Source: Chloroflexota bacterium
GTDB taxonomy: Bacteria; Chloroflexota; Anaerolineae; Anaerolineales; Villigracilaceae
Length of the DNA stretch: 39,912 nucleotides
Assembly (NCBI GenBank): GCA_024434165.1
Contig: QMIW01000036.1
Location: 1-39,912, forward strand
Direction: 5' to 3'
Positions 4,063 through 26,547 of this stretch are shown in pieces (position 1 is the first letter of the stretch; each line of letters begins with the position of its first letter). The notes under the pieces were generated by a model. That model had not been told where the DNA came from. It was given only the letters and a program-made list of their open reading frames with translations, and ran no database searches. The position numbers and the translations under genes are program-made.

Positions 4063-4086
4063 GCCCAGCCTCGCAGTGTCGGAATC

Positions 4087-4092
4087 AGTATA
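4087..4092 (-). promoter_or_regulatory. candidate -10 box for the NACHT unit
   Basis: On the minus strand TATACT, directly preceded by TG, lies 24 nt upstream of the NACHT ATG. No convincing -35 is visible. The spacer 4063-4213 otherwise holds only a fragment of the REP-like tail (4180-4190) and the end of the FIST gene. Confidence 0.3.
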
Positions 4093-4213
4093 CAATAATT
4101 CGCAAGGAGGCGGGTTTACCAAATTGAAAGGTAGATTTTGACAGGGCGCAGATTTTGGGGATTTTCCGCGTTTTTTCCACCCTCACCCTGCATTCGATCT
4201 GGGGTTGTTCAGT

Positions 4214-11316: not shown

Positions 11317-13031
11317 AAGTTCGCAAGCGCTTCGAAAATTTCCGGCGGCAGGGAGTCAACCTTGTAGATTCGCACATACTCATAGCCGTTCAACCAAATG
11401 ACGTGATGAGGCTCAACGGCAGACATGACATCGAGAAAATTCCGGTAGAGTGGCAGCTGCCCCTGGTTGGCGTAATAAACAACGAGGTAATCCGAGGCGT
11501 TCAGGTTGTTCAAGAGGTCCTCGGCATGTTGACCGTCCACATAGTAGGGGCGGAAACTGATGGTCCTGCCGGGATAATAATAGGAGACGCATCCGCGGCT
11601 GTAATAGGAGAAGACTGTTGTATTTTCGGCATCGGGCAGCCCGGCGAGGTAATGGGCGGCAAGTTCCAGCCCCTCGCAATAGGGAAAGTGGGGGAATTCC
11701 CGGTACCAGCCTGCAGCGGCAAGAATCGGGTTGCGGTACGTAAAGTAATATGGGAAATTCGCCAGCGCGCTCCACACCTGGGTAAGCATGATCAGCGAGA
11801 GCAAGGCATATTGCCCGACAACTCGAAACGACGGAAGGCGCTCCCCCAGCCATTGAACCGTGTGAAACCACCCCAACCCTGCCAGCAGGTTGAGGGAGAG
11901 GTAGGCGGTGAGGATGTAATGCGGGGAGTTGCGCCCCTGCGCAAAACCTATCAACAAGACGAAGGCGGCTGCATTCACCAACAGCAAGGTGAAGAAAAGT
12001 CTGTTTCGCGGAGCGGATTCGCGGTCCCGTGTGAACGGAAGGGCAAACCCCAAAAGGACGCCGAGCCAGGTAACGGGTGTGGTGCGATAAAACAATATCC
12101 TCGCCACTTCCCAAATATCCGCCAGGCGGGTGTTCAGGCTGAAGCGGGAGACATCCAGTTCCTCGGTAATCTTGAGGCGTGCGCCCTGAAAGGCATAACT
12201 GAAGGCGTTGCCGTACACTTCATAAAGCATCCTGCCCGGCGCAACCCACATGCCGGGCCAGAAAACAAAATACGTCAGCGCCGCAAACGCCAGCCAGAGC
12301 CCAAAGGTCTTCGCCGCATTTGTGATCGCCCTTCCCCAGCCTCCTCCGCGTTCCTGGAATATCTGCCAGAGCAGAAGGACTCCCACTGCCGCCAGCATGG
12401 CAATCGCAGACGATTTCGATAATTGCGCAAAACCCGCCGCAATGCCGGAAAGAAACAGGAAAGCCAGTTTGCGGTCTTTGAACAGATACACGGCGAGCGA
12501 AATCAGCGAAACCAGCACGAAAAGCGAGACCATCGCTTCATGATTCATCAGGCGGGTCTGACTCAAATGGAAGGGGTCGAACGCGGCAAACGTCAGCGCG
12601 AAGGCGGCGGCAAGCCTGGGGAGAAATTTTTGCAACAGATAATAAAGTACAAGGAAAAGCGCCAGCAGGACAAATATTTGAAGGACACGCGAATAGATCA
12701 GCAGCGCCAGCGGGTCATATCCGCGTTCGTACATGAATGGGTCGAGCAAGCCCTTTTCATAATCCAGATACCCCTGACCCAATCCGCGATATTCGGGGAA
12801 ATAGAGAAACATCGCAAAGGCGATGATGGACATGGTGGTGACGGCGGGCTGATATTCGTAAACGGTCTTCTCGAATTCCCGCTGACCGAGGGCATAGTAG
12901 TAATTCGCGCCCATGCTCAGCCATTGCGGTTCGTCGAGGGTGACAAACGAGCCGATTTCAGGCAGGCGCGGCGCGAGAAAGACGATGATCAGCAACCCAT
13001 ATATGGCAATATCAGAAACTTTACGTGACAC
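11313..13031 (-). CDS. GT-C membrane glycosyltransferase (PMT/ArnT-like), copy 2
   Basis: A 572-aa polytopic GT-C protein, paralogous to the next gene in the same operon. It has the catalytic-type acidic pair Asp33-Glu34 in TLDEPQW and the shared signatures PEYRGLGQGYLD, SQTRLMNHE and FWPGMWV.PGRML. It begins with GTG. The sequence TATAAT lies exactly 7 nt upstream of this codon and no Shine-Dalgarno is present, pointing to a leaderless message. Its last codons overlap the start of copy 1 by ATGA. The operon is therefore copy 2 then copy 1, a tandem duplication that has diverged mainly in the C-terminal soluble tails. This suggests the same donor type but different acceptors or linkages. The role is probably glycan or protein mannosylation at the cell surface. 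Confidence 0.85.
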   Translation of the reverse strand: MSRKVSDIAIYGLLIIVFLAPRLPEIGSFVTLDEPQWLSMGANYYYALGQREFEKTVYEYQPAVTTMSIIAFAMFLYFPEYRGLGQGYLDYEKGLLDPFMYERGYDPLALLIYSRVLQIFVLLALFLVLYYLLQKFLPRLAAAFALTFAAFDPFHLSQTRLMNHEAMVSLFVLVSLISLAVYLFKDRKLAFLFLSGIAAGFAQLSKSSAIAMLAAVGVLLLWQIFQERGGGWGRAITNAAKTFGLWLAFAALTYFVFWPGMWVAPGRMLYEVYGNAFSYAFQGARLKITEELDVSRFSLNTRLADIWEVARILFYRTTPVTWLGVLLGFALPFTRDRESAPRNRLFFTLLLVNAAAFVLLIGFAQGRNSPHYILTAYLSLNLLAGLGWFHTVQWLGERLPSFRVVGQYALLSLIMLTQVWSALANFPYYFTYRNPILAAAGWYREFPHFPYCEGLELAAHYLAGLPDAENTTVFSYYSRGCVSYYYPGRTISFRPYYVDGQHAEDLLNNLNASDYLVVYYANQGQLPLYRNFLDVMSAVEPHHVIWLNGYEYVRIYKVDSLPPEIFEALANL

Positions 13032-13189: not shown

Positions 13190-15754
13190 TCAAGGCTCCG
13201 GCAGCGGACATTTCAGCGGCGCGCCTGGAGCGCGGTTATACACGTAGCCCTCGCCCGAGGTGACGAAGACGACTACCCCGTCAACAAATGGCGCGTAATA
13301 GGCGGTATTCCAGCAACCCAGCACCACCACATCCGCAGTATGAAATGAGAAGGGCGGCGGGTCACCGGGGATGACCACCCCCTCCGCCTGAGCCGCATAG
13401 GGACCGATCAATGTGAACACCAGGCGTTGGTAATCGAGGTAGCGGTAATACGTGCTTCGATCCGGCTCCCCTTCCCCGGTGCGGTAATAGCGCGGGTAGA
13501 GCGCGCGCCCGGCGGTGAGCATGGCTTTGGGCTGGGAAAGAAACGCCGTCAATTCCTCGCGCGAAAAACCGGATTGTTCCAGAAGTCCCGCCGCTTCCAG
13601 ATCGGCGAGCGTCTCCTGCACGGATCGGGTCTGATAGCGCGGCTCGAAGAACATCTCCACAGCGGGCATCAAGGCGCCAATGCCAAGAATGACGAACAAA
13701 ACGGGAAGCGCTTTGAAATATTGTTCCCTTTTCAGCGATTGCAAACCTGCGGTCTCCATCGGCGCAGTTTCAACTTCGGGAGCAGCCCCCGCCAGCCGCA
13801 AAAACCAGATGACCAGTTGAAGTCCGCCCGCCGCGTAAAAAAGGGAAACCATCCAATCCACAGGGGCAATGTAACGCCCGCCCGAAGTCAGACCGAGGGA
13901 ATTGGTGAGAAGGTAAGCCAGAAAAAGGAAAACCGGCAGAAGGGTCAACGAGCGGCTTCGCCCCCAGACAGCCCCGCTCCCCAGTGCAAGCAGGACCAGG
14001 TTGAAGAGGAGCAATACCGCGCCGGCATTCCCAATTTGTCCTTCGTTCCAATCCCTTTTCCAATACGGCGTATCGGCTTTGACCGTGTTCCAAATATCGT
14101 CAAAGACAAACGAGGAAGGCAGGGAGATGACGGAGGTAACGATATTATGGACAAAGTGATTGGTCACCGAGCAGGGCAGGGAATCGCAGAATGGCTCTTC
14201 CGCAGCGCCCGCAAATTTTAGCCTGAGCCGTTCGCGCGGGAATATGCCCGGCTGCGCCGCATCCATCTCCTGCGGCGGGAGCGAGGCTTCTTCGAGAATC
14301 CCATACCGGTAGCGGAGCAGCAACTCGATGCGCGAGTAATACATGTAAAACATCGGAATACCCCTGGATTGATTCCGTATCTCCCAGGGAAGCGTGACCG
14401 CCAGCAGTCCCAACACCAGCAGGCAGGCGGTCAGCGCAGCCTGCTTCCAGCGCAGGCGCAGGGCAAGGGGAATGAAAACCAACGCCACAGGCAGGAGCGT
14501 CAATACGTGGGTGCGCACCAGGAGAGTCAGCCCGAATGCCGTACCCGCCCAGATCAGGTGATTGATTCTGGCTGGCTCCCTGCCCCACTTCAACAGGAAC
14601 AACAGGAAAAAGGCAATGCCAATCGCGGTGGGAAAATCCGTCAGCGCCATTTTGGGGCTGGCGGTATCAATCCACCTTGCGGCAACGATGGCATTCAACC
14701 CGCGCAGGGCAATCAGGATGCCCGCCGAAACCCCCAGCGCGCGGCTGTGCAATTCCCTGCCGAGCAGGTAAACCACCGCCGGGAAAACCGCAAACACCGC
14801 CGCCTGAACCGCCATGAGGATGTCGAAATCCTGCCCGAAGAAAATATGCAAATACGTGAGAAACACGCTGTAAAGTACACGGTCGAAATACCGCCCGTTG
14901 AACAAGCCCTGCCCGATCAGGGCGTACTGCCCGCCCGTGTCGAATGTCGCGCCGTCGGAGTAGGGATATATGATGTTATCCGCCGTGTCGGGCATGAAGT
15001 AATTCGGGGCGAGCGGCTCGCGCGCCCACAGCCAGGCGGCGGCAATCCACAGACCGGCAAAGAACAGGGCATCGAACCAGCCGCGCCTGTTTTCCGCAAT
15101 CTTCGGCTCGAACCAAAAGATGAGCGCGCCGGCAATCAGCGCAAAAAGGACCTGCAGCCCCAGCACAGGCACACCTGCGCCGTACCAGTATTCCGTCGGG
15201 TGGCGGTATCCAATCCCCGTGACCAGCGCAACGCCCCCAAGCAGGAGAAACGCGCCGAGGAAAATCAACGATGTTTTGATGACGACCCGCTCGACGGCTT
15301 GGGCTGGGCTGGTGGATGCTTTCTTCCGCTCGACGAGGAGGAGCGCGGTCGTGACCGCGCCGGTCACTGCCAGCCAGACAAGGAGTGGAGACAACCTTTG
15401 AATGTATCCACTCAAGCCGCCAAGGCGGTAAGGCGGCATGAACAGGGCGACCCAGCACAGAAGAAATACGACAACGGAAAGGAATAACGATGCATTATGC
15501 CGGGTGAAGACCAGCCAAAAGCGTTGAGAACGCTCCGGGTCGCGCGCCAGTTTCCACGTCAGGAAAAGAAGCGCACCTGCCAGCGTGAAGATTCCCGCCG
15601 CGAGGATCATCCGTTCGAGCGAGAATCCAAACAGGACGGAGTTTTTCGGGTCCGAGGGCGAGGCGAGGACGGCAAACAAAGCCGCGAACAATCCAACCGC
15701 CAGGAACAATCCGAAGGCGGGCAGCCGCCGGGAGGGGTCAATTCTGGGAAGCAT
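13190..15754 (-). CDS. large polytopic GT-C-like glycosyltransferase
   Basis: An 854-aa membrane protein. I take ATG at 15754 (MLPRIDPSRR) because it follows the end of the preceding gene closely, with a 17-nt overlap; the longer frame to 15829 would overlap it by 92 nt. About 12-14 hydrophobic segments are spread through the first 700 residues. A large outer loop near residues 255-300 has Asp-rich signatures (PDTADNI, SDGATFDTGG) typical of the catalytic face of GT-C enzymes. A soluble C-terminal domain of about 150 residues ends the protein. It is predicted to use a polyprenyl-phosphate-linked sugar at the outer membrane leaflet. The MraY/WecA-type transferase gene immediately upstream supports a role in lipid-linked glycan assembly. 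The exact family is uncertain. Confidence 0.75.
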   Translation of the reverse strand: MLPRIDPSRRLPAFGLFLAVGLFAALFAVLASPSDPKNSVLFGFSLERMILAAGIFTLAGALLFLTWKLARDPERSQRFWLVFTRHNASLFLSVVVFLLCWVALFMPPYRLGGLSGYIQRLSPLLVWLAVTGAVTTALLLVERKKASTSPAQAVERVVIKTSLIFLGAFLLLGGVALVTGIGYRHPTEYWYGAGVPVLGLQVLFALIAGALIFWFEPKIAENRRGWFDALFFAGLWIAAAWLWAREPLAPNYFMPDTADNIIYPYSDGATFDTGGQYALIGQGLFNGRYFDRVLYSVFLTYLHIFFGQDFDILMAVQAAVFAVFPAVVYLLGRELHSRALGVSAGILIALRGLNAIVAARWIDTASPKMALTDFPTAIGIAFFLLFLLKWGREPARINHLIWAGTAFGLTLLVRTHVLTLLPVALVFIPLALRLRWKQAALTACLLVLGLLAVTLPWEIRNQSRGIPMFYMYYSRIELLLRYRYGILEEASLPPQEMDAAQPGIFPRERLRLKFAGAAEEPFCDSLPCSVTNHFVHNIVTSVISLPSSFVFDDIWNTVKADTPYWKRDWNEGQIGNAGAVLLLFNLVLLALGSGAVWGRSRSLTLLPVFLFLAYLLTNSLGLTSGGRYIAPVDWMVSLFYAAGGLQLVIWFLRLAGAAPEVETAPMETAGLQSLKREQYFKALPVLFVILGIGALMPAVEMFFEPRYQTRSVQETLADLEAAGLLEQSGFSREELTAFLSQPKAMLTAGRALYPRYYRTGEGEPDRSTYYRYLDYQRLVFTLIGPYAAQAEGVVIPGDPPPFSFHTADVVVLGCWNTAYYAPFVDGVVVFVTSGEGYVYNRAPGAPLKCPLPEP

Positions 15755-16802
15755 GTTGAGTTTGGTCGTCGAGTGTGGGTTTGCGCTCCAGCCAGAAGAG
15801 GAACAACAAACCGAAAACGATGGTGGCAAGGAAGAACGTCAACGCAAGCCAGGGAGGCAGATAAAAGGTGAGGAACGCTACACAACTGATCAACAGTGCC
15901 GCCAGGTGGGTCGCCAGCACGGCAACTTTCGGCTGAAAGCCCATCACCACCAGGCGGTGGTAGGTGTGGTCGCGCCTGCCGCTTCCCACGCGCTGTCCCC
16001 TGCGGAAGCGGGAGAGGACAACCAGCGTGGTATCGAAGATGGGCACGCCAAGCAGCATGATCGGGACAATCCACGACGATTCGGGGCTGCGATCAAGCGG
16101 ATTATAAAGGATGCCCAGCGAGGCAAGCAGAAATCCGATGGTTTGCGCGCCGGAGTCGCCGAGGAAGAAGCGGGCGGCGATACCGTTCCAGATGTACAAG
16201 CCCGCGCAGAGCCCCAGCAAAACCCCCGACCACTGCGAAAGGATGGGCTGACCCGCCAGCGCGGTTGCGCCCATGTAAAACGCCGAGGCGATGGCGCCGA
16301 TTCCCGCCACGATGCCGTCCATGCTGTCAATCATGTTCAGGGCGTTGGTGATGCCGATGAGCCAGAACAATGTGATGAAGATGTTCAATGCCTGGGCAAG
16401 TTCGGGCGAAAGGCCGTTTGCGGCAAAGAGGATGGTCATGAACCGAACCTGCACGCCGAGGGAAATCAGGACTATGGAGGCGATAAACTGCCCGATCAAC
16501 TTCGGCACAGCCGATAACCCTTTGAGGTCGTCCCAAAGCCCGAAGAAAAAGATCACCGCCGCGCCCGCCAGCGCCGCAAGAATATCGCGGTTCAATGATG
16601 CACGGAATAGAAACGCCATGCCCGCCAGCACGGCAAACAACAAAATGCCGCCCGCCAGCGGGGTGGGCTTTGCATGTTGTTTGTGAGGCGCAGAACCGGG
16701 AACGTCCATCAGCCCGATACGGCGGGCAAGCAGCGAAGCCGGCAAACCCAGCACAAGACCCGCCAGCAGGCTTATGGAGGCAAGGAAGAAAGGGGTATCC
16801 AT
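15738..16802 (-). CDS. WecA/MraY-type polyprenyl-phosphate sugar-1-phosphate transferase
   Basis: A 354-aa polytopic protein of the MraY/WecA/TagO superfamily, which links a UDP-sugar phosphate (commonly GlcNAc-1-P) to undecaprenyl phosphate as the first membrane step of glycan assembly. The family motifs are all visible: HKQHAKPTPLAGG (40-52), the catalytic Asp pair at 91-92 in WDDLKG, NALNMIDSMDG (153-163), GDSGAQ (215-220) and the His-rich cytoplasmic loop RRDHTYHRL (276-284). The motif NMIDSMDG differs slightly from the usual N.IDG.DGL. It lies in a glycan locus rather than with mur genes, so an initiating role for a surface polysaccharide is more likely than peptidoglycan lipid I synthesis. 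It overlaps the next gene by 17 nt. Just before its ATG sits an 8-bp inverted repeat. Confidence 0.85.
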   Translation of the reverse strand: MDTPFFLASISLLAGLVLGLPASLLARRIGLMDVPGSAPHKQHAKPTPLAGGILLFAVLAGMAFLFRASLNRDILAALAGAAVIFFFGLWDDLKGLSAVPKLIGQFIASIVLISLGVQVRFMTILFAANGLSPELAQALNIFITLFWLIGITNALNMIDSMDGIVAGIGAIASAFYMGATALAGQPILSQWSGVLLGLCAGLYIWNGIAARFFLGDSGAQTIGFLLASLGILYNPLDRSPESSWIVPIMLLGVPIFDTTLVVLSRFRRGQRVGSGRRDHTYHRLVVMGFQPKVAVLATHLAALLISCVAFLTFYLPPWLALTFFLATIVFGLLFLFWLERKPTLDDQTQHASQN

Positions 16803-16936: not shown

Positions 16937-17695
16937 TCACAACCGGCGAGCCCGACGGTATACCGGGCTTGTAAAAAAGCGAAACGCGCTTTGCAGGTGA
17001 AGAAAGAGGTAATACAGACTGCGGCGGCTGGAACGCTGCGCTTCGTGCCGGACGCGAAGATGGGAATCCACAAGAATCTTCAGTCCCTGCAGGCGGGCGC
17101 GGGCGCAAAATTCCACATCCTCAAGGTAGAGACGGTAACGCCCGTCCATGCCACCCATCCGGCGGTAGGTTTGCGAGCGCATGAACCAGAACATGCCGGC
17201 AATCCAATCGGGGTGAATCATCCCGCTGCTGTCTGGGGGGTAAGGCTTGAAGCCATAACCGGGCAAACGGCGGCGAATCAACTCGAAGGGGGTTGGAAGC
17301 GGACGGAATGAATCCTGAACGGCTCCGGTCTCATCCACGATCAGGGGTGCGAGCAAGTCCGCCTGGTGGGTTATCAGGCTTTCGCGCAATGCCGAATATA
17401 GCGGGCTTTCAAACACAAGATCAGGGTTGAGAATGGAGAAAAATTCCCCGCGCGCAAATTCAAAGGCACGGTTGTGGTTTTCCGCAAAACCCAGCCGGCG
17501 CTTGTTTCGCAAAATGGTTAGGGAAGCCCAGGGCGCGGGGTCGAAGTCCGGCAGGTCGTCCTTCAAGTTGTCGGTAAGGACGACCTGGAAACGCGAATTG
17601 GTATCCGGCTCCTGCCGGCGGATGCTTTCCAGCAGGCGCGTAACCCGGCTTGCGTCGCCGTGACTGACAATGGAGAGGGTGATGAGGGGGGTCAT
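16937..17695 (-). CDS. family 2 glycosyltransferase
   Basis: A 252-aa GT-A-fold family 2 glycosyltransferase without membrane helices. It shows the nucleotide-binding start (LITLSIVSHGD), the linker RRLGFAENHN typical of rhamnosyl-type GT2 enzymes, the metal-binding NPD (90-92) in place of DXD, and the catalytic-base segment LYLEDVEFCARA near residue 190. It is predicted to transfer a nucleotide-activated sugar, plausibly dTDP-rhamnose made by the rml genes of this window, to a lipid-linked glycan at the inner face of the membrane. Its ATG overlaps the stop of the preceding GT2 gene by four bases (ATGA), so the pair is translationally coupled. The C terminus ends in a basic stretch that may bind membrane. 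Confidence 0.85.
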   Translation of the reverse strand: MTPLITLSIVSHGDASRVTRLLESIRRQEPDTNSRFQVVLTDNLKDDLPDFDPAPWASLTILRNKRRLGFAENHNRAFEFARGEFFSILNPDLVFESPLYSALRESLITHQADLLAPLIVDETGAVQDSFRPLPTPFELIRRRLPGYGFKPYPPDSSGMIHPDWIAGMFWFMRSQTYRRMGGMDGRYRLYLEDVEFCARARLQGLKILVDSHLRVRHEAQRSSRRSLYYLFLHLQSAFRFFTSPVYRRARRL

Positions 17696-18738
17696 GCGCG
17701 GCGATTCCGCTTCAAGAATTCCTGCACAGGTTCAAATAAACCGTTGGACATCACGCGCAGCAAATCGCGGGGGCTGGCTTTGATGTCTCTTTGAATGAGC
17801 CTGCGTTTGGATAATATTTCGGGAAGTCTGAGCACGGCGTCGAAGACGGCGCGCAAAATTGCGCGGCTTTGTCCGCGCAGGGCGAGGTACATGACAAAGA
17901 ACAAAACGGCAAAACCATGCAGCGGTAGAAACAGCCAGAAGTACGGCGAGGGCATATCTTTGAAGAAGGTCCAAATCATGTTGCGATAACCGTAATAGAC
18001 CGAAAAGTCGCTGCGCTTGCCTGTGCTGGCGCTGCCCACATGACGAACGACCGCCTCCGGCACATACAGGCATTTCCCTCCATCCAAGCGAAGGCGAAAT
18101 CCCAAATCCACATCTTCAAAATAGGAAAAGTAATCTTCATCGAAACCGCCCAGGTTCAGAAACTCCTCGCGGGAATACAATGCGGCGGCGGCGCACGGAC
18201 TGAATATCTCTTTTTGTTCGAGTCCGTATTTATCCGCAGGCAGGTTATGTCCATTGCGCCAGGCAAGACCGCTGATATGGTAGGCATCGCCAGCGCCATC
18301 CAGCAATCCAGGCGAGTGATATTGAATCTGGCGGGAGGAGAAGGCCGTGCAGTCCGGGTTTTGTCGCGCAGCACGCAGCAGACTCTCAAGCCAATCCGGT
18401 TCCGGGAAGGCATCCGCATTCAGCAGGGCAAGCCACTTGCCGCGCGCCAGGCGCGCTCCGATGTTGTTCGCGGCGGCAAAACCAAGGTTGGAAGTGAGGC
18501 GCTCGATGCGGAGATCGAATATCCGGGAGAGTTCGTTCAAATTCAATCCAGCGGTATCGCCGGAGCCGTTATCTACGATTATGAGTTCGTAGCCTTTGAA
18601 AACCTGCCGGGAAAGATCCTCCAGGCATTGGGAAAGGGTATCTCTGCTGTTCCAGGTAACGAGGATGACGGAGACTTCGGGAGGGTTGGAGCCGTCAAAC
18701 TCCTCATTCCCGTTCGATTGCGCCTGAATGCCGCTCAC
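17692..18738 (-). CDS. family 2 glycosyltransferase (rhamnosyltransferase-like)
   Basis: A 348-aa GT2 enzyme. The GT-A core has VSVILVTWNS, VDNGSGD (55-61), the linker SNLGFAAANN, a metal-binding NAD (107-109) and YFSYFEDVDLGFRL with the likely base at about 213-214. A C-terminal hydrophobic segment (about 265-290) anchors it to the membrane. The SNxGFAAANN-type linker is common in WbbL-like rhamnosyltransferases, so dTDP-rhamnose is a reasonable donor, though this is inference. The start is GTG at 18738, 32 nt after the methyltransferase stop, without a clear Shine-Dalgarno. The next GT2 gene overlaps its end by ATGA. Confidence 0.83.
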   Translation of the reverse strand: MSGIQAQSNGNEEFDGSNPPEVSVILVTWNSRDTLSQCLEDLSRQVFKGYELIIVDNGSGDTAGLNLNELSRIFDLRIERLTSNLGFAAANNIGARLARGKWLALLNADAFPEPDWLESLLRAARQNPDCTAFSSRQIQYHSPGLLDGAGDAYHISGLAWRNGHNLPADKYGLEQKEIFSPCAAAALYSREEFLNLGGFDEDYFSYFEDVDLGFRLRLDGGKCLYVPEAVVRHVGSASTGKRSDFSVYYGYRNMIWTFFKDMPSPYFWLFLPLHGFAVLFFVMYLALRGQSRAILRAVFDAVLRLPEILSKRRLIQRDIKASPRDLLRVMSNGLFEPVQEFLKRNRRA

Positions 18739-18770
18739 AAGGTGTCATCCAGAAAAAAACCGGAAACCAT

Positions 18771-20192
18771 TTAATCCCGCTTTTCCATTAAGTACAGAAA
18801 TCGTTCCGATTCACGGACCTTCACTTTTTCAAGAATGGCAAAGCGTGCGCCGAATATCCTTTCGAATTCGTCCACGGTGTATTGGTCGAAGATATCCAGG
18901 CGGCTTGCCAATAGTTTTTGAACCTGGGAATCCGTCTTCGGGACGAATTCAATGACAAGCCATTTCCCCAGGTCGTGAAAGAACTCCGCCAAAAGAGGCA
19001 GGGGCACATTATTGGAAATCGCCAGATGGTGGATGACGGCCAGGGCAAAAACCATATCGGCGGGCGCGCGCTCCAGAAACGCATCGCGCTCCCGTGTGTG
19101 CCAGCCCAGGGATGGGCTGGGGTTGGTCAAATCCTGAACCAGGGGGAGGATATTGGTTTCGCGGGCGGATTTTACCTGCCGATAATTCTGCTCCACCGCC
19201 GCCGGATCAATATCGAATGCGATCGCAGGAATTCCCTGTACGGAAGCCAACCGGGTAAAGACACCGTTATTTGCTCCCACATCCCATACCTGACGGGGGC
19301 TTAAGCGGTGAACCCATTCAGAGATTATGTCCTTCTTATGCTCGAACGCCGAATCCGTATAGTTGGTCATGTTGTAATAATCGCCCCATTCCGTCCCTAC
19401 GGGGTTCCATTCCAGCTGTTTGACCGTGCTTTCCAGACTTTCGATCAACCCCTGCAGCGCCTGTTTGGTCATCCTTCCCCGGGGCGTCTTTTCCAAACGG
19501 TCGTTCCCAGCGCCCGCGTCGGCATAACGCATCTGCGCCCGCGCGTGCAAATGGATATGGGTCAGCAAGCCGAAGTTAAAGCGTGTGGATGCCGGCAATA
19601 AGCGGCTCGCAAGGTCGAGCGGCACGCCGTCAATATAGACTCGCATCAACTGGCTCAGACGCACGTCGGTCTTCGCCATCAGCGCCAGCGGAGCGAGGAA
19701 ATGCTGGCAAAATTGTCTGTATGCCACCCACGGAGCGCCGTCCTTGTAAACCTCGAAAGAGAGCGTATCTATCAGGATTGGCCTGCCGTTATGAAATTGG
19801 ATGTTATATGCGCTCGCATCCTTAAGGGACATTCCAAACTTAAGCGCATGTTTTTGGACAGCCAGCGTGGCAAGGGCGGCATCCTTCAACTGGGAAAACG
19901 ACCACTCATAGGGGTATGAGATAAAACGCACCCGCTCCGGGCAGATGACCTTGAAAGCCGACTTCGGTTCGACGGGCTGCACTTCCGCTTCCGCATGCGG
20001 AATCAGAAGATTCGCTTTCAACAGCCTGTCATACAAGCCGGATTCGATCAGAAAGGCATAGTCCTGGGAATAACTGTGATTCACCTGACGGTAGAGCTTT
20101 TCGTCCCGCGTGAACAGGAAACCGCTGGGGTCGCGGAACGAGGCGCTCAATCGCTCATTGTTTTTCAACGTCGTCATTTTCCTCGTTTTCAT
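18771..20192 (-). CDS. kinase-like / SAM methyltransferase fusion (NoeA-like)
   Basis: A 473-aa soluble protein. The C half is a class I SAM-dependent methyltransferase: motif I QVWDVGANNGVF near residue 305, an acidic end of strand 2 in FDIDP, and ALAVIHHLAISN as the later motif. The N half contains DASAYNIQF (125-133) and then ILIDTLSFE (139-147). This spacing matches the catalytic loop D....N and metal-binding D of aminoglycoside-phosphotransferase-like kinase folds. The overall pattern recalls proteins annotated as NoeA-like nodulation methyltransferases. It is predicted to methylate a sugar of the surface glycan. The first ATG overlaps the preceding small gene by 38 nt; an alternative ATG at 20177 has GAGG just upstream, so the true start could be either. 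Confidence 0.78.
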   Translation of the reverse strand: MKTRKMTTLKNNERLSASFRDPSGFLFTRDEKLYRQVNHSYSQDYAFLIESGLYDRLLKANLLIPHAEAEVQPVEPKSAFKVICPERVRFISYPYEWSFSQLKDAALATLAVQKHALKFGMSLKDASAYNIQFHNGRPILIDTLSFEVYKDGAPWVAYRQFCQHFLAPLALMAKTDVRLSQLMRVYIDGVPLDLASRLLPASTRFNFGLLTHIHLHARAQMRYADAGAGNDRLEKTPRGRMTKQALQGLIESLESTVKQLEWNPVGTEWGDYYNMTNYTDSAFEHKKDIISEWVHRLSPRQVWDVGANNGVFTRLASVQGIPAIAFDIDPAAVEQNYRQVKSARETNILPLVQDLTNPSPSLGWHTRERDAFLERAPADMVFALAVIHHLAISNNVPLPLLAEFFHDLGKWLVIEFVPKTDSQVQKLLASRLDIFDQYTVDEFERIFGARFAILEKVKVRESERFLYLMEKRD

Positions 20193-20343
20193 CTGTCTGT
20201 TTCGGTTTTATCCCAAACATCTTTTTAATTCGCGTCCATTGGGAGCGAACAAATACGCCCAACCCAAGCAGGGCAGCAAGCGCAAGTTGAATGATGATAC
20301 TGCCTGAACCGGGGTCGAGATAGGGTAATGGAGAGTAGTGCAT
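20155..20343 (-). CDS. small single-span membrane protein (DPGSGS type)
   Basis: A 62-aa protein. An N-terminal YLDPGSGSI motif is followed by one hydrophobic helix (about 18-34), an amphipathic basic stretch (RSQWTRIKKMFG) and an acidic tail (DENEENDDVEKQ). A strong CAGGAGG lies 7 nt before the ATG, so it is well translated. Similar short proteins with a DPGxGS start sit beside polysaccharide, sulfatase-like and methyltransferase genes in many bacteria (from memory). Function is unknown; a membrane scaffold for the neighbouring enzymes is possible. Its end overlaps the start of the methyltransferase gene, implying coupled translation. Confidence 0.75.
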   Translation of the reverse strand: MHYSPLPYLDPGSGSIIIQLALAALLGLGVFVRSQWTRIKKMFGIKPKQTDENEENDDVEKQ

Positions 20344-20400
20344 GGAAAGCCTCCTGGCTGAAATGTGGCTATTCTAATCGAATTTATCGTCGTCGTACCA

Positions 20401-20555: not shown

Positions 20556-22061
20556 TCACTTCAACGGAATGTTGTCCTGGAACAAAAAGTTGAAAACAAT
20601 GGGGAATGTGTTTATGGGTTTCACATCCTGAGGCAGGGTGGAAATATCATATCCTGGGGCGTAGAGAGCAAACATGATGTTGCTTTTAAACTCCTCGGGG
20701 AAATTCTCTAGCGTTATCGTCGTGCTTTTGTTTTTTATGTTTCGAGCCCCGTGATCGGATTGCAGGATAATCACCGGCGGGCGTTCAGGGTCGGAATTTG
20801 CAAGTATCGTCTCCACAATCTTTACGGCAACATCCATCGAATAATTATATTGGTCCAGATAATAATTCCAATTGGCTTGATACCTCTTCGGTATCACTTT
20901 GCCATTCTCATCGAACATAAACGGCTTGTGCGGGAATACCAGATGGACATATACAAATTTCGGGGATGACACCTCGTTCAGGCCCGCGATCCTATTGGCG
21001 ATTGTGGAGATAAATCTCTTATGTTCAATTCGAGCCAAATCATCGCCGAGCGTATATAACGGCGGGTACACCCGCAGCATGGAATTCTCCGCGACCAGCC
21101 TCCCAAATTCGTCGAATAGCACCATATCGCCAACCGAATCCCTGGTCGAGTGGTTGATGGAAACGTCGGCAGAAATGGGAACAGCCGCTTCGATGAATTC
21201 GGTCAATTCCTCGATCACCACAATTGAATATCCCCTTGATTTCAGATAGCTCGTAACCCTGTTGTTGGCGATCTTTTCATAATAGAGTTCATGATATTTC
21301 TTCTGGCAACAAGGGAGTTCCTCGTAGTTCAATCTCTCCGCCATTTGATGGAGTGTGGTAATGGAACTGCTGTGACTGTCCTCTGCGACAAAAAAACCGG
21401 TTGATTTCAGGAAAGCCACAAACTCATCCACCTTGGGATTCTTCCAATATTCCCGCATGGGCTGAAAACCGGAAAATTCGTCAAAAACAATAAAATAAAT
21501 ATCGGGATAATCCTGCATCTGTGTTTTTGACGTCGAAGCCAGAACAGGCGTCGGAGCAGCGCCCCAGTCCGGCATTTTCTTGATTTCAGCGGAAACGATA
21601 CTCACCGCATTGATCAAGATCAACATGCCAACAATGAAAACCGCGCTGTTCCAGAATCTGGAAGACCTGGGTTCACCCATTTTCCATGTGAACCACGAAA
21701 CCAGCAGGGCAATCAACAGAAAAACAGGAAACAGGTATCGGTTTGTCGCAAGAAATGGAACATTTGCAGTTATCAAAAAATCCAACGTCAAGCCATATGT
21801 GTGAAAAAAAATTAGAAAAACAAAAGCGGCATTGGCGGATTCGACAACACGTCTTCCAATCATGAAGAACAGAATATAAATAACCACAGCCGCAACGATG
21901 CTCAACATCACCATTCTAAACAAACTTGGAAGCAGGAGCATCACTGCGTTATTGGCATAGTGAAGAACCGGCACATATAGTGCCAATAAAAGCGGCAGGA
22001 TACCGCGCTTCACTACCTCCAGCATCTTTCCGCCGGGTGTTTCAGAAAACACTTTGAACAT
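20556..22061 (-). CDS. membrane sulfatase / phosphoglycerol-transferase-like enzyme
   Basis: A 501-aa protein with about five N-terminal membrane helices (about 20-155) and an extracytoplasmic alkaline-phosphatase-superfamily domain (about 185-500). Strand one ends with IVFDEF (Asp194, metal ligand), and the conserved LQSDHGAR near residue 440 gives the second metal pair. This layout resembles lipoteichoic-acid-synthase and phosphoethanolamine-transferase families as well as sulfatases. The nucleophile (Ser/Thr in SSSITTL near 232-238) is not a Cys-X-Pro-X-Arg sulfatase site, so a transferase of a phospho-alcohol group is at least as likely as a sulfatase. In a glycan locus it would decorate or remodel the polymer outside the cell. 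AAAGGA lies 11 nt before the ATG. Confidence 0.78.
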   Translation of the reverse strand: MFKVFSETPGGKMLEVVKRGILPLLLALYVPVLHYANNAVMLLLPSLFRMVMLSIVAAVVIYILFFMIGRRVVESANAAFVFLIFFHTYGLTLDFLITANVPFLATNRYLFPVFLLIALLVSWFTWKMGEPRSSRFWNSAVFIVGMLILINAVSIVSAEIKKMPDWGAAPTPVLASTSKTQMQDYPDIYFIVFDEFSGFQPMREYWKNPKVDEFVAFLKSTGFFVAEDSHSSSITTLHQMAERLNYEELPCCQKKYHELYYEKIANNRVTSYLKSRGYSIVVIEELTEFIEAAVPISADVSINHSTRDSVGDMVLFDEFGRLVAENSMLRVYPPLYTLGDDLARIEHKRFISTIANRIAGLNEVSSPKFVYVHLVFPHKPFMFDENGKVIPKRYQANWNYYLDQYNYSMDVAVKIVETILANSDPERPPVIILQSDHGARNIKNKSTTITLENFPEEFKSNIMFALYAPGYDISTLPQDVKPINTFPIVFNFLFQDNIPLK

Positions 22062-22245: not shown

Positions 22246-23577
22246 TTAATATCCAAACGATTTCAGGATGGAACCAAATTCTCTTTCGCACAAAGCCTGC
22301 AAAGACGGGCTGAGGTCTTTCTTCCAACGACCAATGGATTCCTCTGGCGATCTGCTGGTTCTGTGCGCCTGCTCTGCTTCATTTTCGACCGTAGAAGCAG
22401 CGGAGAGCATTGTCTCGATAATGCTGTTGGAATGCTCCAATCCCAGGTATTGTAAAATACCGCGGAGCGTGTTGATTGGATCCAAAATAACATCTTCATA
22501 CCGAACCAAGTGGGCTTTATCTCGTCTTGCCATCCAGGCCTGATGCAGGTTATGGATGCCCTTAACGCTCAACCGTCTTACATAATCCTCATCGCTTTGA
22601 ACTCTGTTACGGCCAAATTTCACAGAATTCCGCTTTACATTGAAGGCATTTATTGAAGCCAGCATGTCGCGAAAATCGCGTACCAGAATTATTTCCTTTG
22701 CCTCTGGATAAAGGTCCCGGATGATCCACGGAATAAAGGAAGGGTAAAATTTTTCAGCAAAGTACATGGGGGTCTTTTGGTTTTGAGCGGCAGCTACACT
22801 TTTGTAATATCCTTCCATACTCTGTTGGCAGAAACCTGCCAAATCTTCGACGTATCTCACACCAACCCAATGCTTTACTTGCGGGTCGCTCATGTACTTT
22901 GAGATAAAGTTGACATTTGGCATGATGGCGGGATGGTGCTGTTGAATGTTCGGAACATCCTGCTCAGGTCCCGGGTAGGAAGCGGAGAGGACTTTAAAAA
23001 ACTGCGCCCAGTAACTGGCGACGTGAACTTCATACGGATGCGGCTTCTGCACAACAATACTCGGATGAGCAGAAAACAGACGCATCAGCATTGTGGTCCC
23101 GGTACGACCAAGGCTATTTAGGATAAGCGGCTGGAGTGATGGCTTGAAGGATGAGCGAATGGGTTTGCGGGTGCCGCTGATTGTGGCTAATTTGATAACA
23201 GATCCATCATCCATTGCGCCCTGCATCACTAATTTAAAGTCCGGACAAAACCCAATCACATTAGCTAAGATTTTAAAATGCTGATGATACATGGGCCGCA
23301 TTGAGGATTTACCGCGAAAGAAATCCCTGATGGACGCCAATATCCGTCGCGTCATCCCTGCGTGATACAACGGATGTATGGAGGAAGCCCCGCTAACAAC
23401 ATCTCGAATTGTTATAGATTTGCAATAGGCATTGAATGAACGAACCCAACCTTCAAATTCGATTGCATACACATCTTCGCTTCGCCCAGCAGCAGGCGAG
23501 TTGATTTCAAAAACAAACTTTGCGCTTGAAGATTGGTGAACTTCTATTTTATTAATCGTAACAAGGGTCATTTTCAA
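22246..23577 (-). CDS. sulfotransferase with an N-terminal beta-sandwich-like domain
   Basis: A 443-aa protein. Residues about 150-440 form a PAPS-dependent sulfotransferase fold: the 5'-phosphosulfate loop LGRTGTTML (156-164) and the 3'-phosphate-binding segment IILVRDFRDMLAS near residue 295. The first 135 residues are beta-rich (FVFEINSPA, YAIEFEGWV) and resemble the accessory domain often found ahead of sulfotransferases and glycosyltransferases in glycan loci. It is predicted to add sulfate to a sugar of the surface polymer in the cytoplasm. The start has no strong Shine-Dalgarno. It lies in the AT-rich part of the cluster, downstream of the ABC exporter genes and separated from them by a long inverted repeat. 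Confidence 0.83.
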   Translation of the reverse strand: MKMTLVTINKIEVHQSSSAKFVFEINSPAAGRSEDVYAIEFEGWVRSFNAYCKSITIRDVVSGASSIHPLYHAGMTRRILASIRDFFRGKSSMRPMYHQHFKILANVIGFCPDFKLVMQGAMDDGSVIKLATISGTRKPIRSSFKPSLQPLILNSLGRTGTTMLMRLFSAHPSIVVQKPHPYEVHVASYWAQFFKVLSASYPGPEQDVPNIQQHHPAIMPNVNFISKYMSDPQVKHWVGVRYVEDLAGFCQQSMEGYYKSVAAAQNQKTPMYFAEKFYPSFIPWIIRDLYPEAKEIILVRDFRDMLASINAFNVKRNSVKFGRNRVQSDEDYVRRLSVKGIHNLHQAWMARRDKAHLVRYEDVILDPINTLRGILQYLGLEHSNSIIETMLSAASTVENEAEQAHRTSRSPEESIGRWKKDLSPSLQALCEREFGSILKSFGY

Positions 23578-23765: not shown

Positions 23766-24545
23766 TCAAATTAGATTATTTCGATGATCCTGAAAGACCT
23801 TATATTCATGGATGACTTTGAGGGCGGGTCCGTCCATTTTTATTCGGCCACTATCGAGCCAGATCGCCCTTGTGCAGAGAGTCCGCAGGGTGGGCAGGCT
23901 GTGCGAGACGATCATAATCGTCTTGCCCTCATCCTTCAACTTCAGAAGGGTGTTATTGCATTTCTCCCTGAACGCTTCATCTCCGGGGGAGAGCGCTTCA
24001 TCAATGAAAATGATTTCCGGGAGGGTGTTTATGATAATGCTAAAACCCAGCCTGCTGCGCATGCCGCTGGAGTATGATTTCACAGGCTCATCAATGAAAT
24101 TAGCCAGCCCCGAATATTCAATGATCGTATCAATTTTTTCCTCGATCACCTGATTGGGAATGTATTTCATGGCAGCATATAGATATATATTCTTGCGACC
24201 GGAAAGATTCATGTTAAACCCGGCGTTCAAAGCAAACAGCTCACGATAAGAATCGTGGATTCGCACCCTCCCTTTTGTAGGGCGGCTTATGCCGGTCAAA
24301 ATCCTCAACAATGTGCTTTTGCCGGAACCGTTACTGCCTATCAATCCGACAATTTCACCGGGATAAATTTTAAAGTTGATATCATCCAGCACGAGAAAAC
24401 GCGATTCCCGTCTGCCTTTTGACAACGAAGCCAGTAGAAACTCGGACAGCTTCTGTCCCCTGCGCCGCACCATTTGAGGGCGGCGGTTGTAGTATTTTGT
24501 GATATTTTCCGCTTCAATTATTGGCGATTGCATGAGTCCGTCCAT
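23766..24545 (-). CDS. wzt: polysaccharide ABC exporter ATPase (Wzt/KpsT/TagH-like)
   Basis: A 259-aa ATPase. Walker A is GSNGSGKST (70-78), the signature is the degenerate YSSGM (158-162) typical of polysaccharide exporters rather than LSGGQ, Walker B is IIFIDEAL (178-185) and the switch His is in VSHSL. An insertion rich in Arg/Lys (about 22-49) lies before strand 2. It lacks the C-terminal carbohydrate-binding domain of long Wzt proteins, so substrate selection must differ from the O9a-type system. With the permease encoded 32 nt upstream it should form an exporter moving a lipid-linked glycan across the membrane. A second Met at residue 5 is an alternative start; neither has a good ribosome site. 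Confidence 0.87.
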   Translation of the reverse strand: MDGLMQSPIIEAENITKYYNRRPQMVRRRGQKLSEFLLASLSKGRRESRFLVLDDINFKIYPGEIVGLIGSNGSGKSTLLRILTGISRPTKGRVRIHDSYRELFALNAGFNMNLSGRKNIYLYAAMKYIPNQVIEEKIDTIIEYSGLANFIDEPVKSYSSGMRSRLGFSIIINTLPEIIFIDEALSPGDEAFREKCNNTLLKLKDEGKTIMIVSHSLPTLRTLCTRAIWLDSGRIKMDGPALKVIHEYKVFQDHRNNLI

Positions 24546-24577: not shown

Positions 24578-25363
24578 TTATTGGTAATCGGCAAACAGAC
24601 CGTCATTCTTCACAAAAAATGACACCCCTGCAAAAAAGAACAGAATACTGAAAATCAGCCAGAACAATAAAAGCAACGGGTCTGGCGGACTGGAATAGAG
24701 GATTACATTTCTAAAACTTTCTATCATAAAAAACAAAGGGTTTAGGTTCAAGAAAGACGCGAATTCTTGAGGAACCATATCCGAAGAAATCAGAACCCCT
24801 GAAAAATACAAAAAAAAGCGGAGGGCCAAGCCGGTTATTTGAGAAATATCCTGAATGAATGCACCCAGAGTGGCAAGTATGAACATCGCCCCGGCTGTAA
24901 ATGTAAAAAAAACAAATAGAAGAACAGGCACATACACATATGCAGCGGTTGGAAAATATCCAAAAAACATGTTCAACATGATCAGAATGGAAAACCCTAC
25001 CAGGAAATCCACAAATTTCTCCAGAAGATCAACAAATATCAGGGTTTGATTTGGGAATTTGATTTGGGAAATGATATTGATCTTGGAACTTATCAATGTG
25101 GACGACCTCATCAAGGCGCTGGAGAAGAATTGCCAAAGCACCATTCCGGCCAGGAAAAAAAGGACAAAGGGCGCATCGCCGCGCGGCTTCCTTACAAGAA
25201 TCAGACTAAAAATAGTAGCATAGATCAGGGTCTCCACAATGGGCTGCAGGATGATCCATAGCGCGCCCAGTTTGGAATCGAGATAATTGGCTTCGATGTT
25301 ATATCGAGCCCAGGTCGTAATTAAAAATCTGCTTTTCCAAATATCCGAAAAGAATTTACGCAT
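24578..25363 (-). CDS. wzm: polysaccharide ABC exporter permease (Wzm/KpsM-like)
   Basis: A 261-aa ABC-2 family permease with six predicted membrane helices. N-terminal LITTWARYNIEANYLDSKLGALWIIL is the amphipathic start seen in Wzm/TagG-type proteins, and the C terminus is short and cytoplasmic. It partners with the ATPase encoded directly downstream to export the undecaprenyl-linked surface glycan. The gene follows the 369-aa sulfotransferase gene by 60 bp. Codon and base use are more AT-rich than in the genes at either end of the window. Confidence 0.87.
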   Translation of the reverse strand: MRKFFSDIWKSRFLITTWARYNIEANYLDSKLGALWIILQPIVETLIYATIFSLILVRKPRGDAPFVLFFLAGMVLWQFFSSALMRSSTLISSKINIISQIKFPNQTLIFVDLLEKFVDFLVGFSILIMLNMFFGYFPTAAYVYVPVLLFVFFTFTAGAMFILATLGAFIQDISQITGLALRFFLYFSGVLISSDMVPQEFASFLNLNPLFFMIESFRNVILYSSPPDPLLLLFWLIFSILFFFAGVSFFVKNDGLFADYQ

Positions 25364-25423: not shown

Positions 25424-26533
25424 TTATTGCCCTGTTAATTTGCGGTATGCCTTCTTAAAGAGGGACAGAAGTCGATTCGGTGGAAAATTAACGCGGTTCT
25501 GCTGGACGATCAGGGCGTTTTGTTGGGCGTATAATTTGTACATTATTTTTGTGATGATCGGAACCAGCCTCTCCACGGTCAGCCCTTCATAGGGTTCCCA
25601 TGCATCATCCAGATTGGGCAGAGGTTCGTAGAATAAACGGCCGTCTGCACGCTTCAAATAATCTCTCGCCACCAATTGGTTCGAAAGCTCGTATTTCTTC
25701 AGTATTTCCAATCTTTCCTTTGGAGACAAAATGCCATAAGATTCAAAAGGCTTCTTCTTGTAGCTTTCATCCAGCACTCTGTTCATCATATTATGCAGGC
25801 GCTGATCGGAAAGATTCTCATAAAAATCCCTGTTCAGAGACAGAAATTCCAGCACATCCCGGGAGAAGCCCGAATTTACATTTACATCATTACGGAGCGC
25901 GGGCTTTTCAGGCCAGTTTACATTGATCGTCTTTAAAAAGTCCGGCAAGACCCCTTCCGGCATTTGTTCCTTTTCGTAAGGGCGCACAATGATATTCTCC
26001 ATTCCAAAGTTCTGCGCCCATGGTTTGAGTAATCTATGCCAATCTGTTTGCCGCCATCCCCCCCACTGTTCGTTTTGTTTATCGAGCGAATCGAGAATTT
26101 GGCTTGAAGAGACGAACTTGTGCCCCCATTGTTTCCATGCCGACTCCAAGTGATGATCCTGCCGCCGGACGTAGCAGATCACCTTGATGTTGGCATCCAA
26201 TTTCCCCGCCAAACGTCCCATCCGTTCGCGCCAATTTACCAATAACGCCTCATGGCTGATTACAATGGAATGGAGGGAGTGTTGTTTACAGTACAGGATA
26301 CATTTGTCGAAGAGTTCGATATCCTTTGAGCCATCCGTATTTTCAAAATAATACCCATGCCAGTAATTATGCCCCTCCCGCATGGGGCTGTAAATCATCG
26401 CATCGTGAAAATTCGGGTAGAGAACGCCAGATTCATTCTTAAGTTTTGAGAAGTTCTGTTCCAAAAACCTTTGCAAAGCTGTTGTACCGGTTTTTGTTGC
26501 TCCAATATGTAAATAAAGTGTTACTTCACCCAT
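25424..26533 (-). CDS. sulfotransferase-family protein
   Basis: A 369-aa soluble protein of the sulfotransferase superfamily. The phosphosulfate loop is at the very start (HIGATKTGTTALQ, residues 9-21) and the 3'-phosphate segment is VICYVRRQDHHLESAW near residue 130. There is no signal peptide, so it acts in the cytoplasm with PAPS as donor. ATG at 26533 is chosen because AGGAG lies 6 nt upstream; the reading frame also permits a TTG one codon earlier. It is unrelated at the sequence level to the other sulfotransferase of this window beyond the fold motifs. The two suggest sulfation at two positions of the exported glycan. A hairpin in the leader and an extended -10 promoter precede it. Confidence 0.8.
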   Translation of the reverse strand: MGEVTLYLHIGATKTGTTALQRFLEQNFSKLKNESGVLYPNFHDAMIYSPMREGHNYWHGYYFENTDGSKDIELFDKCILYCKQHSLHSIVISHEALLVNWRERMGRLAGKLDANIKVICYVRRQDHHLESAWKQWGHKFVSSSQILDSLDKQNEQWGGWRQTDWHRLLKPWAQNFGMENIIVRPYEKEQMPEGVLPDFLKTINVNWPEKPALRNDVNVNSGFSRDVLEFLSLNRDFYENLSDQRLHNMMNRVLDESYKKKPFESYGILSPKERLEILKKYELSNQLVARDYLKRADGRLFYEPLPNLDDAWEPYEGLTVERLVPIITKIMYKLYAQQNALIVQQNRVNFPPNRLLSLFKKAYRKLTGQ

Positions 26534-26547
26534 CAAAAGCTCCTAAG

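Follow-up and report, generated by a model that had tools for sequence, protein, structure and literature searches.

A putative three-gene system built around a homologue of the nodulation gene noeA was identified in a 39,912-nucleotide stretch of Chloroflexota DNA (GenBank assembly GCA_024434165.1, contig QMIW01000036.1, positions 1 to 39,912), hereafter called the window. The noeA product is predicted to join a kinase-like domain to a class I S-adenosylmethionine (SAM) methyltransferase, and its gene is accompanied by one for a small one-helix membrane protein and one for a NoeB-like membrane enzyme. The family of the noeA product, the folds of its two halves, the conserved residues, the overlapping small gene and the genome-wide co-occurrence of the three genes were established by computation. 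The reading favored here is that NoeA methylates a phosphate within a three-gene envelope system; its probability is put at roughly 0.5, and catalytic activity, step order, phosphate as the methyl acceptor, topology and the role of NoeB are what we infer within it. The chemistry of NoeA is thereby narrowed to a testable proposal, phosphorylation followed by methylation of the phosphate, for which the residues are named. The three genes are:

18771-20192, minus strand: noeA homologue, 473 amino acids, kinase-like domain plus class I SAM methyltransferase (tblastn to NoeA; AlphaFold2 model)
20155-20343, minus strand: single-helix membrane protein of the YLDPGSGS family, 62 amino acids (found with a 71-residue Sinorhizobium meliloti protein, E 1.9e-4)
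20556-22061, minus strand: NoeB-like membrane protein of the alkaline phosphatase/sulfatase superfamily, 501 amino acids (profile; PF00884; conserved residues)

Family and distribution of the noeA homologue

The open reading frame (ORF) in which the first-pass annotation had seen a kinase-methyltransferase fusion was confirmed at 18771-20192 on the minus strand, with DASAYN at residues 125-130 and Asp142 within ILIDTLSF. In tblastn searches of plasmid records, annotated NoeA and the window protein shared 33.8% identity across 97% of the query (E 8e-63). The window protein matched 65 plasmid records, 57 of them with names that begin with Sinorhizobium, and two rhizobial NoeA proteins were 34-35% identical to it. 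Judged by sequence, the window protein is a member of the NoeA/Lani_1194 family, with full-length homology to annotated NoeA.

This family was described in a 2022 survey of Legionella kinases, where Lani_1194 is a predicted kinase fused to a methyltransferase (PMC9758233). The kinase-methyltransferase prediction for the noeA family is therefore already published, and the fusion is not new. In the section of the survey considered, about 2000 homologues are reported, 94% of them retaining the methyltransferase, and NoeA and NoeB are listed as homologues; Lani_1193 was present in 65% of 816 neighborhoods and the NoeB-like Lani_1195 in 38% (PMC9758233). That section is neighborhood-based and reports neither co-occurrence with unlinked NoeB genes nor WbdD-type methyltransferase residues. 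A literature search on Lani_1194, or on NoeA together with kinase and alkaline phosphatase, returned PMC9758233 as the sole paper. Three traits are common to the Lani_1194 family and the window: the fusion of a kinase-like domain with a methyltransferase following it, an Arg at the place of the kinase Lys, and a NoeB-like neighbor.

Residues D125, N130, D142, Y272, H388, H389 and R464 of the window protein are shared with S. meliloti NoeA. In the nodL-noeA-noeB region of S. meliloti, a gene for a small YLDPGTGS protein lies immediately upstream of noeA and noeB lies immediately downstream, whereas in the window the NoeB-like gene is upstream of the small gene and noeA, its product is remote from S. 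meliloti NoeB, and nodL was not recognized. Host-specific nodulation is a phenotype of S. meliloti and would not be expected in the window host, which, to judge by its nearest named relative (L001, a Chloroflexi metagenome-assembled genome), does not nodulate. A truncated noeA is carried by a nodulation-deficient S. meliloti strain, according to the portion of the source consulted (PMC4053727).

At least 564 of at least 590 pattern-matched stretches from the genome_contigs collection encode relatives of the window protein. The 80 relatives kept were 57-94% identical to it and, going by record titles, came mostly from Chloroflexi/Anaerolineae, with Krumholzibacteria, Zixibacteria, Omnitrophota and others. 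These 80 loci had been fetched with patterns that included AYNIQFHN, and motif conservation was rechecked on 26 sequences obtained otherwise. The set of 109 loci used for neighborhood counts contains near-duplicates, not all of which were removed (L081 is the window itself; L082/L001 and L104/L105 are pairs). Whole-genome searches found noeA in 29 of 61 genomes of relatives and, in a sample of the phylum, in 19 of 151; some genomes belong to both samples, G000 and G021 among the positives. Each positive genome had one noeA match, except two in which it was broken into pieces: four in G154 (C96, 24083-25029, with remains of the small gene) and two in G040 (C298, 2673-4258). A search of 50,697 phage records with the window protein gave no matches.

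The kinase-like half

19407-20192, minus strand: kinase-like domain, residues 1-262 (fold searches and conservation)
19803-19820, minus strand: codons of D125-N130 (DASAYN), the catalytic loop, with D125 and N130 in 107 of 107 sequences
19767-19769, minus strand: codon of D142, the metal-binding Asp (DFG equivalent) in ILIDTLSF, present in 107 of 107 sequences

The window protein very probably consists of a kinase fold and a methyltransferase. The AlphaFold2 model of the full-length protein, built from 55 sequences, had a mean predicted local distance difference test score (pLDDT) of 90.3 and a predicted template modeling score (pTM) of 0.90, and the kinase half modeled alone had a pLDDT of 89.5. 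Two fold searches were run with the kinase half, and in each the 50 matches listed bore, without exception, the titles of kinases or kinase-homology domains. The best were at E 8.9e-5 in Foldseek and, by Z score, PKR (Z 10.0, root-mean-square deviation (rmsd) 4.4, 201 of 264 residues). Structure prediction had been put forward in the first-pass annotation as the way to find out whether the N-terminal fold was unrelated to kinases, and the fold is kinase-like. The assigned elements are a G-loop-like SFRDPSG (residues 18-24), R35 at the place of the beta-3 Lys, the catalytic loop KDASAYN (residues 124-130) and the metal Asp D142; these places were assigned from secondary structure and from the analogous relative in the Legionella survey, not from coordinates.

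The D....N...D spacing that was originally read as the sign of a kinase did not carry that reading by itself. The pattern D-x4-N-x(8-16)-D occurs in 11 of the 65 window ORFs of at least 150 amino acids and in 202 of 658 neighbor ORFs of at least 200, and a pattern this common is no evidence of a kinase. The part of the claim that stood is carried by invariance and fold. Residues E96, D125, N130 and D142 are present in all 107 aligned sequences (one of which is the window protein) and R20 and R35 in 106 of 106, one row being gapped; every invariant position was also kept in the 26 sequences not obtained through a motif-bearing pattern, which include the two rhizobial NoeA proteins. Invariance of D125, N130 and D142, together with the fold-search results, raises the motif above chance.

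Several results weigh against an ordinary kinase. Kinases match this half at low TM-scores (0.3-0.4), which makes it a distant member of the kinase fold. The Lys-Glu pair suggested as a check in the first-pass annotation was not found: R35, an invariant Arg, occupies the Lys place, and the alpha-C place yielded no Glu that is invariant: the candidate position 44 is D in 61, E in 20, N in 13 and T in 6 of the 107 sequences and the invariant E96 lies elsewhere. By sequence, Pfam and NCBIfam gave no meaningful kinase match to the window protein, nor did Pfam to 55 kinase halves (one of the 55 matched RIO1, at an E of 0.26 that carries no weight). Searches of the Protein Data Bank (PDB) gave no matches at E 1 with phmmer and, with a profile, 16 matches at E 0.12 and worse, all to methyltransferases or hypothetical or uncharacterized proteins and none to a kinase. 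An hhalign comparison with the WbdD kinase, represented by a single WbdD sequence, had a probability of 0.1, although both have kinase-like folds.

With Arg at the beta-3 place and no certain alpha-C Glu, the domain could be a weak, atypical or dead kinase. At the extreme, the N-terminal half would be a kinase-fold scaffold that binds substrate or nucleotide without phosphotransfer, and the enzyme would be solely a methyltransferase. The Lys replacement, the uncertain Glu and the absence of a meaningful kinase family match by sequence speak for this, and the kinase of the survey's relative is alike: as far as the section considered reports, its beta-3 Lys is replaced by Arg (R38 in one relative) and the ion-pair Glu is absent, while equivalents of D166, N171 and D184 are conserved (PMC9758233). 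The catalytic-loop and metal residues of the window family are nonetheless invariant, in 107 of 107 sequences. Pseudokinases usually lose some of these residues, and a scaffold of this kind is considered unlikely. The conserved residues suggest instead that the NoeA kinase domain is probably active. In the favored reading ATP would be its phosphate donor, and the acceptor a hydroxyl group on a lipid carrier or on a glycan that is secreted or belongs to the envelope.

The methyltransferase half and a phosphate-methylation site

18774-19406, minus strand: class I SAM methyltransferase domain, residues 263-473 (PF13489; structure matches; hhalign to the WbdD methyltransferase)
19026-19031, minus strand: codons of H388-H389, aligned with WbdD H132-H133 (profile alignment, 107 of 107)
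18801-18803, minus strand: codon of R464, counterpart by eye of WbdD R203 in R-x-x-Y-L (106 of 106, one row gapped)

The second half had been annotated as a normal class I methyltransferase, and the structure matches bear this out; the Pfam match, to PF13489, is at E 1e-4, under the curated cut-off. The class I SAM glycine/acid motif is intact, with D304, G306, N308, G310 and D327 in 107 of 107 sequences. The top Foldseek match of the full model was WbdD (220 alignment columns, E 5.2e-8). In a Z-ranked structure search the 50 listed matches all fell within residues 263-473, led by MePCE (Z 17.8, rmsd 3.0, 191 residues) and BCDIN3D (Z 17.6, rmsd 2.6, 183 residues), with ChlM at 17.3 and NodS at 16.7. 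MePCE and BCDIN3D are RNA 5'-phosphate methyltransferases; both differ from NoeA in their RNA substrates and in having no kinase partner domain in the matched chains.

Comparison with WbdD located a candidate site for phosphate methylation. The NoeA methyltransferase profile aligned with the WbdD methyltransferase at an hhalign probability of 95.7 (E 9.8e-9, 112 columns), placing H388-H389 on H132-H133. Within the NoeA family, Y272, K286, H388, H389 and E415 are present in 107 of 107 sequences and R464 in 106 of 106, with one gap. The WbdD variants H132A, H133A, R203A and Y16F are reported, in the part of the source consulted, to phosphorylate without methylating (PMC3482155), and the WbdD of E. 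coli HS carries Y, HH and R at these positions. The conserved WbdD-like His-His site favors phosphate as the methyl acceptor.

The assignment has points against it. MePCE and BCDIN3D lead within the tie margin (about 1 Z) and WbdD is not among the 50 listed matches; with ChlM and NodS close behind, this ranking is suggestive only. Y272 was paired with Y16, and R464 with R203 (R-F-L-Y-L and R-P-M-Y-L), by eye, at positions that the local alignment does not cover. NodS and RebM also have a His pair or a Tyr pair at the site, so a phosphate acceptor is supported, not proven. Insofar as these residues can be compared, WbdD-like phosphate-methylation chemistry in NoeA is plausible, and the C-terminal methyltransferase would then, after phosphotransfer, methylate the phosphate by way of the His-His site.

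A small membrane protein encoded upstream of noeA

The 62-residue ORF sits directly upstream of noeA and overlaps its start by 38 bases. Its product carries YLDPGSGS, after which come one hydrophobic segment (residues 14-32) and a tail that is first basic and then acidic. The S. meliloti counterpart is the unnamed 71-residue gene between nodL and noeA. Homologues of the small gene lie upstream of noeA on the same strand, within 350 bases of its start, at 99 of 109 loci. At the other 10, three have no upstream sequence, three have the homologue elsewhere on the strand, three lack it (two of these with fewer than 240 bases upstream) and one has it on the opposite strand. The small gene appears to be a previously overlooked third component of the noeA system, as far as literature searches on noeA and Lani_1194 can show; Pfam and NCBIfam, the two libraries tried, gave no matches to its product.

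A profile of the small protein matched strongly in all 29 noeA-positive genomes of relatives (E 2.6e-15 or better) and in none of the 32 noeA-negative ones. In the phylum sample the corresponding figures were 19 of 19 (1.6e-10 or better) and 0 of 132. Each strong match lies immediately upstream of noeA, by coordinates read by hand. The matches of G021 and G044, two of the 29, cross a stop, and that of G154 spans model positions 15-55. The profile was made from 46 rows chosen after motif-less members (3 of 100) had been removed, so the invariance of the motif is partly selected; and it weighs against the contrast between positive and negative genomes that the threshold for a strong match was chosen after the matches had been seen. 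Weak matches (4e-7 to 5e-4) occurred in the noeA-negative genomes G005, G030, G034, G056 and G086; those in the regions of G005, G030 and G086 belong to a second, paralogous small-protein family.

Members of this second family, with the motif MYIDP...GG (L110:5815-6000; G000, contig C172; also L111, L112, L113 and L115), adjoin an ORF of about 600 residues that by eye encodes an alkaline phosphatase (AlkP)-superfamily phosphodiesterase, found beside the small protein in 5 of the 6 regions fetched. Proteins with the small motif may accompany AlkP-superfamily enzymes more generally.

In 24 of 100 homologues of the noeA-linked protein an AxA precedes the YLDPGSGS motif, not always with a signal-like stretch. 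AxA resembles a signal-peptidase site, which would have the motif facing outside. The favored arrangement would place NoeA at the inner face of the membrane, anchored by the one-helix protein, with its tail, basic and then acidic, directed towards NoeA and the YLDPGSGS motif directed outwards.

The NoeB-like partner

The NoeB-like protein of the window matches PF00884 at E 0.0046, under the cut-off, whereas S. meliloti NoeB passes at 4.3e-11. Like its relatives it has several hydrophobic segments ahead of the AlkP-type domain. In an alignment of 31 NoeB-like sequences T236, D436, H373 and H378 are invariant and D194 and H437 are at least 90% conserved; from knowledge of the AlkP family we take T236 and these Asp and His positions to be the nucleophile and metal-binding residues. 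Among solved structures, the NoeB profile matched sulfatases at E 2.4e-7 at best and phosphoethanolamine transferases more weakly, at E 0.012 and 0.24, a result that leaves hydrolysis and transfer unseparated.

At 33 of 109 loci noeA has a NoeB-like gene on its own strand no more than 600 bases away. Searched for anywhere in the genome with a profile that had been built from noeA neighbors, NoeB was found in 25 of 29 noeA-positive and 2 of 32 noeA-negative genomes of relatives (Fisher p 8e-11). The phylum sample gave 17 of 19 and 0 of 132 (p 1e-20), and the window's genus taken alone 21 of 24 and 1 of 13 (p 3e-6). The trio was seen in Chloroflexi, on a planctomycete plasmid, in Zixibacteria and Gemmatimonadales metagenome-assembled genomes and in rhizobia, a spread suggesting that the system serves envelope decoration generally, with nodulation as one of its uses. 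With a small membrane protein and a phosphatase-like membrane enzyme as its companions, the role of noeA becomes testable. In 13 of 14 NoeB regions fetched NoeB was away from noeA, and in 8 of these 13 a gene that by eye resembles a CMP-sugar cytidylyltransferase was near, which points to glycans.

These associations have limits that count against the three-gene system. Because of shared ancestry the co-occurrence counts are not independent, and the p values overstate them. The window protein is 16% identical to S. meliloti NoeB and is linked to it by profile; phmmer with S. meliloti NoeB reached six loci, the window not among them. Five genomes have noeA without NoeB (G003, G017, G021, G044 and G154), although G003 and G017 are 77-78% complete and noeA is in pieces in G154. 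Two have NoeB without noeA (G024 and G053). The seven NoeB-like matches of G053 were accompanied by neither a detected noeA nor a detected small protein, which would fit an assembly gap or another donor system.

In the favored reading the NoeB-like enzyme would, beyond the cytoplasm, either transfer or hydrolyse the phosphodiester that NoeA makes. An overlapping possibility, differing in that the group does not remain on the product, is that the phosphate which NoeA adds (and methylates) protects a cytoplasmic intermediate or serves its export, and that NoeB hydrolyses this group outside. Antibiotic pathways offer a precedent in which a phosphorylated product is exported and then dephosphorylated, and the alkaline phosphatase/sulfatase features of NoeB and its co-occurrence with noeA would suit such a step. 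However, some genomes have several NoeB matches for a single noeA, a poor fit to one dedicated deprotection step, and the profile matches do not tell hydrolysis from transfer; we regard temporary tagging as rather unlikely.

The same features, hydrophobic segments ahead of an AlkP-type domain and co-occurrence with noeA, would also fit the possibility that the kinase acts on the lipid left behind by a NoeB-type head-group transferase and the methyltransferase on the lipid phosphate, much as DgkA re-phosphorylates diacylglycerol after EptA or OpgB; the small protein would then be the membrane anchor of the system. The matches listed, whether by sequence or by fold, include no lipid kinase, though such listing does not exclude one, and lipid recycling of this kind is judged very improbable.

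It is also conceivable, if decidedly doubtful, that NoeA, together with its one-helix partner, is the only synthase, on the cytoplasmic side, of a methyl-phosphate donor carried in the membrane. NoeB-type enzymes, one or several to a genome, would then be outward-facing transferases that pass methyl phosphate from this donor to different exported glycans, with the 62-residue protein bridging both membrane faces. Single-copy noeA alongside up to seven NoeB matches per genome (some partial or weaker) would fit this, as would the cytidylyltransferase-like genes near unlinked NoeB, the AxA ahead of YLDPGSGS and the paralogous small protein beside AlkP-like genes. If true, this would mean a new form of glycan phospho-methylation outside the cytoplasm, paralleling the way in which one polyprenyl-phosphate-sugar synthase supplies many GT-C transferases.

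Comparison with WbdD and the genomic context

22246-23577, minus strand: sulfotransferase (PF13469, E 5e-20)
23766-24545, minus strand: Wzt-type ATP-binding cassette (ABC) ATPase, 259 amino acids, without a C-terminal extension (alignment to E. coli HS Wzt)
24578-25363, minus strand: Wzm-type ABC-2 permease (PF01061)
17692-18738 and 16937-17695, minus strand: two family 2 glycosyltransferases (GT2) downstream of noeA (context)

A kinase-methyltransferase fusion at a locus with wzm/wzt-type ABC genes, in reversed order relative to WbdD, was correctly described in the first-pass annotation. WbdD of E. coli O9/O9a is a methyltransferase-kinase-coiled coil protein of 708 amino acids that includes a ruler, whereas NoeA is a kinase-methyltransferase of 473. 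The two have in common both domains in one chain, D-x4-N, the metal Asp and the HH pair, with the Arg and Tyr matched by eye. On the WbdD model, NoeA would cap the non-reducing end of an ABC-exported glycan with methyl phosphate, setting chain length and gating export. The paired domains, the phosphate-methylation residues and wzm/wzt at the noeA locus agree with this. Methylphosphate termination by a protein with another kind of kinase is also reported: as given in the part of the source consulted, the methyltransferase-kinase ORF6 of Klebsiella O7, whose kinase is unlike that of WbdD, installs methyl phosphate in vitro (PMC11231755). ORF6, a chain terminator, differs from NoeA in belonging to a coiled-coil protein with a polymerase glycosyltransferase as a further part, and chain terminators characteristically carry a coiled-coil ruler (PMC11231755).

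No such ruler was present in the NoeA model, in which the longest helix has 20 residues. The C-terminal domain of Wzt, the partner of WbdD, recognizes the cap. The 259-residue Wzt of the window aligns only to residues 3-235 of the 431-residue Wzt of E. coli HS. A Wzt-like ATPase is near 6 of 108 family members, the window counted; this is a lower bound given that some flanks are short, and members of the ATPase cluster range from 245 to 754 amino acids, so that some may be other ABC ATPases. In L001, the nearest relative (94%), blastn aligned the window over 17837-20356 and 13194-16712: the small gene, noeA and GT2 are kept, the alignment ends at 20356 just upstream of the small gene, and the NoeB, sulfotransferase and ABC genes beyond it had no blastn match within the 8 kb flank of L001. 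A second context, referred to as topA-type, was seen at 40 of 108 loci. The suggestion of an independent chain-capping enzyme is not borne out by these features in a member of the known NoeA/Lani_1194 family, and termination of the WbdD type is considered quite improbable. WbdD-like capping had been the first reading considered, and it was set aside on the reversed order, the missing ruler, the short Wzt and the rarity of nearby ABC genes.

In the topA-type context a 335-residue membrane protein, for which no Pfam match was found, is encoded downstream of noeA in 40 of 108 loci, and a gene that by eye encodes topoisomerase I lies upstream in 39 of 108. No NoeB-like gene was present within the fetched stretches of these loci. 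Neighbors in the other context were mixed. The 144 proteins considered, from 62 loci, remained of 150 picked in these loci out of 172 candidates in 63, cut to 300 amino acids and with NoeB-like genes excluded; they included Glycos_transf_2 (7), GT87 (6), NeuB (3), CTP_transf_3 (3) and Sulfotransfer_1 (3), a mere leaning towards glycan loci.

Other features of the window

A second sulfotransferase-like ORF was recognized by eye at 25424-26536, with no Pfam match; together with that at 22246-23577 it flanks the ABC genes, and the paired sulfotransferases parallel the combination of sulfation and NoeA/NoeB genes in rhizobia. A large ORF at 1426-4122 appears by eye to combine a NACHT-like NTPase with a C-terminus resembling formylglycine-generating enzyme, and lies beside a repeat-like IVIGGN/IVMGDN stretch at 932-1537; the two are possibly a defence or signalling pair. 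Adjacent membrane glycosyltransferases of the PMT family, alike by eye, are encoded at 9595-11316 and 11313-13031.

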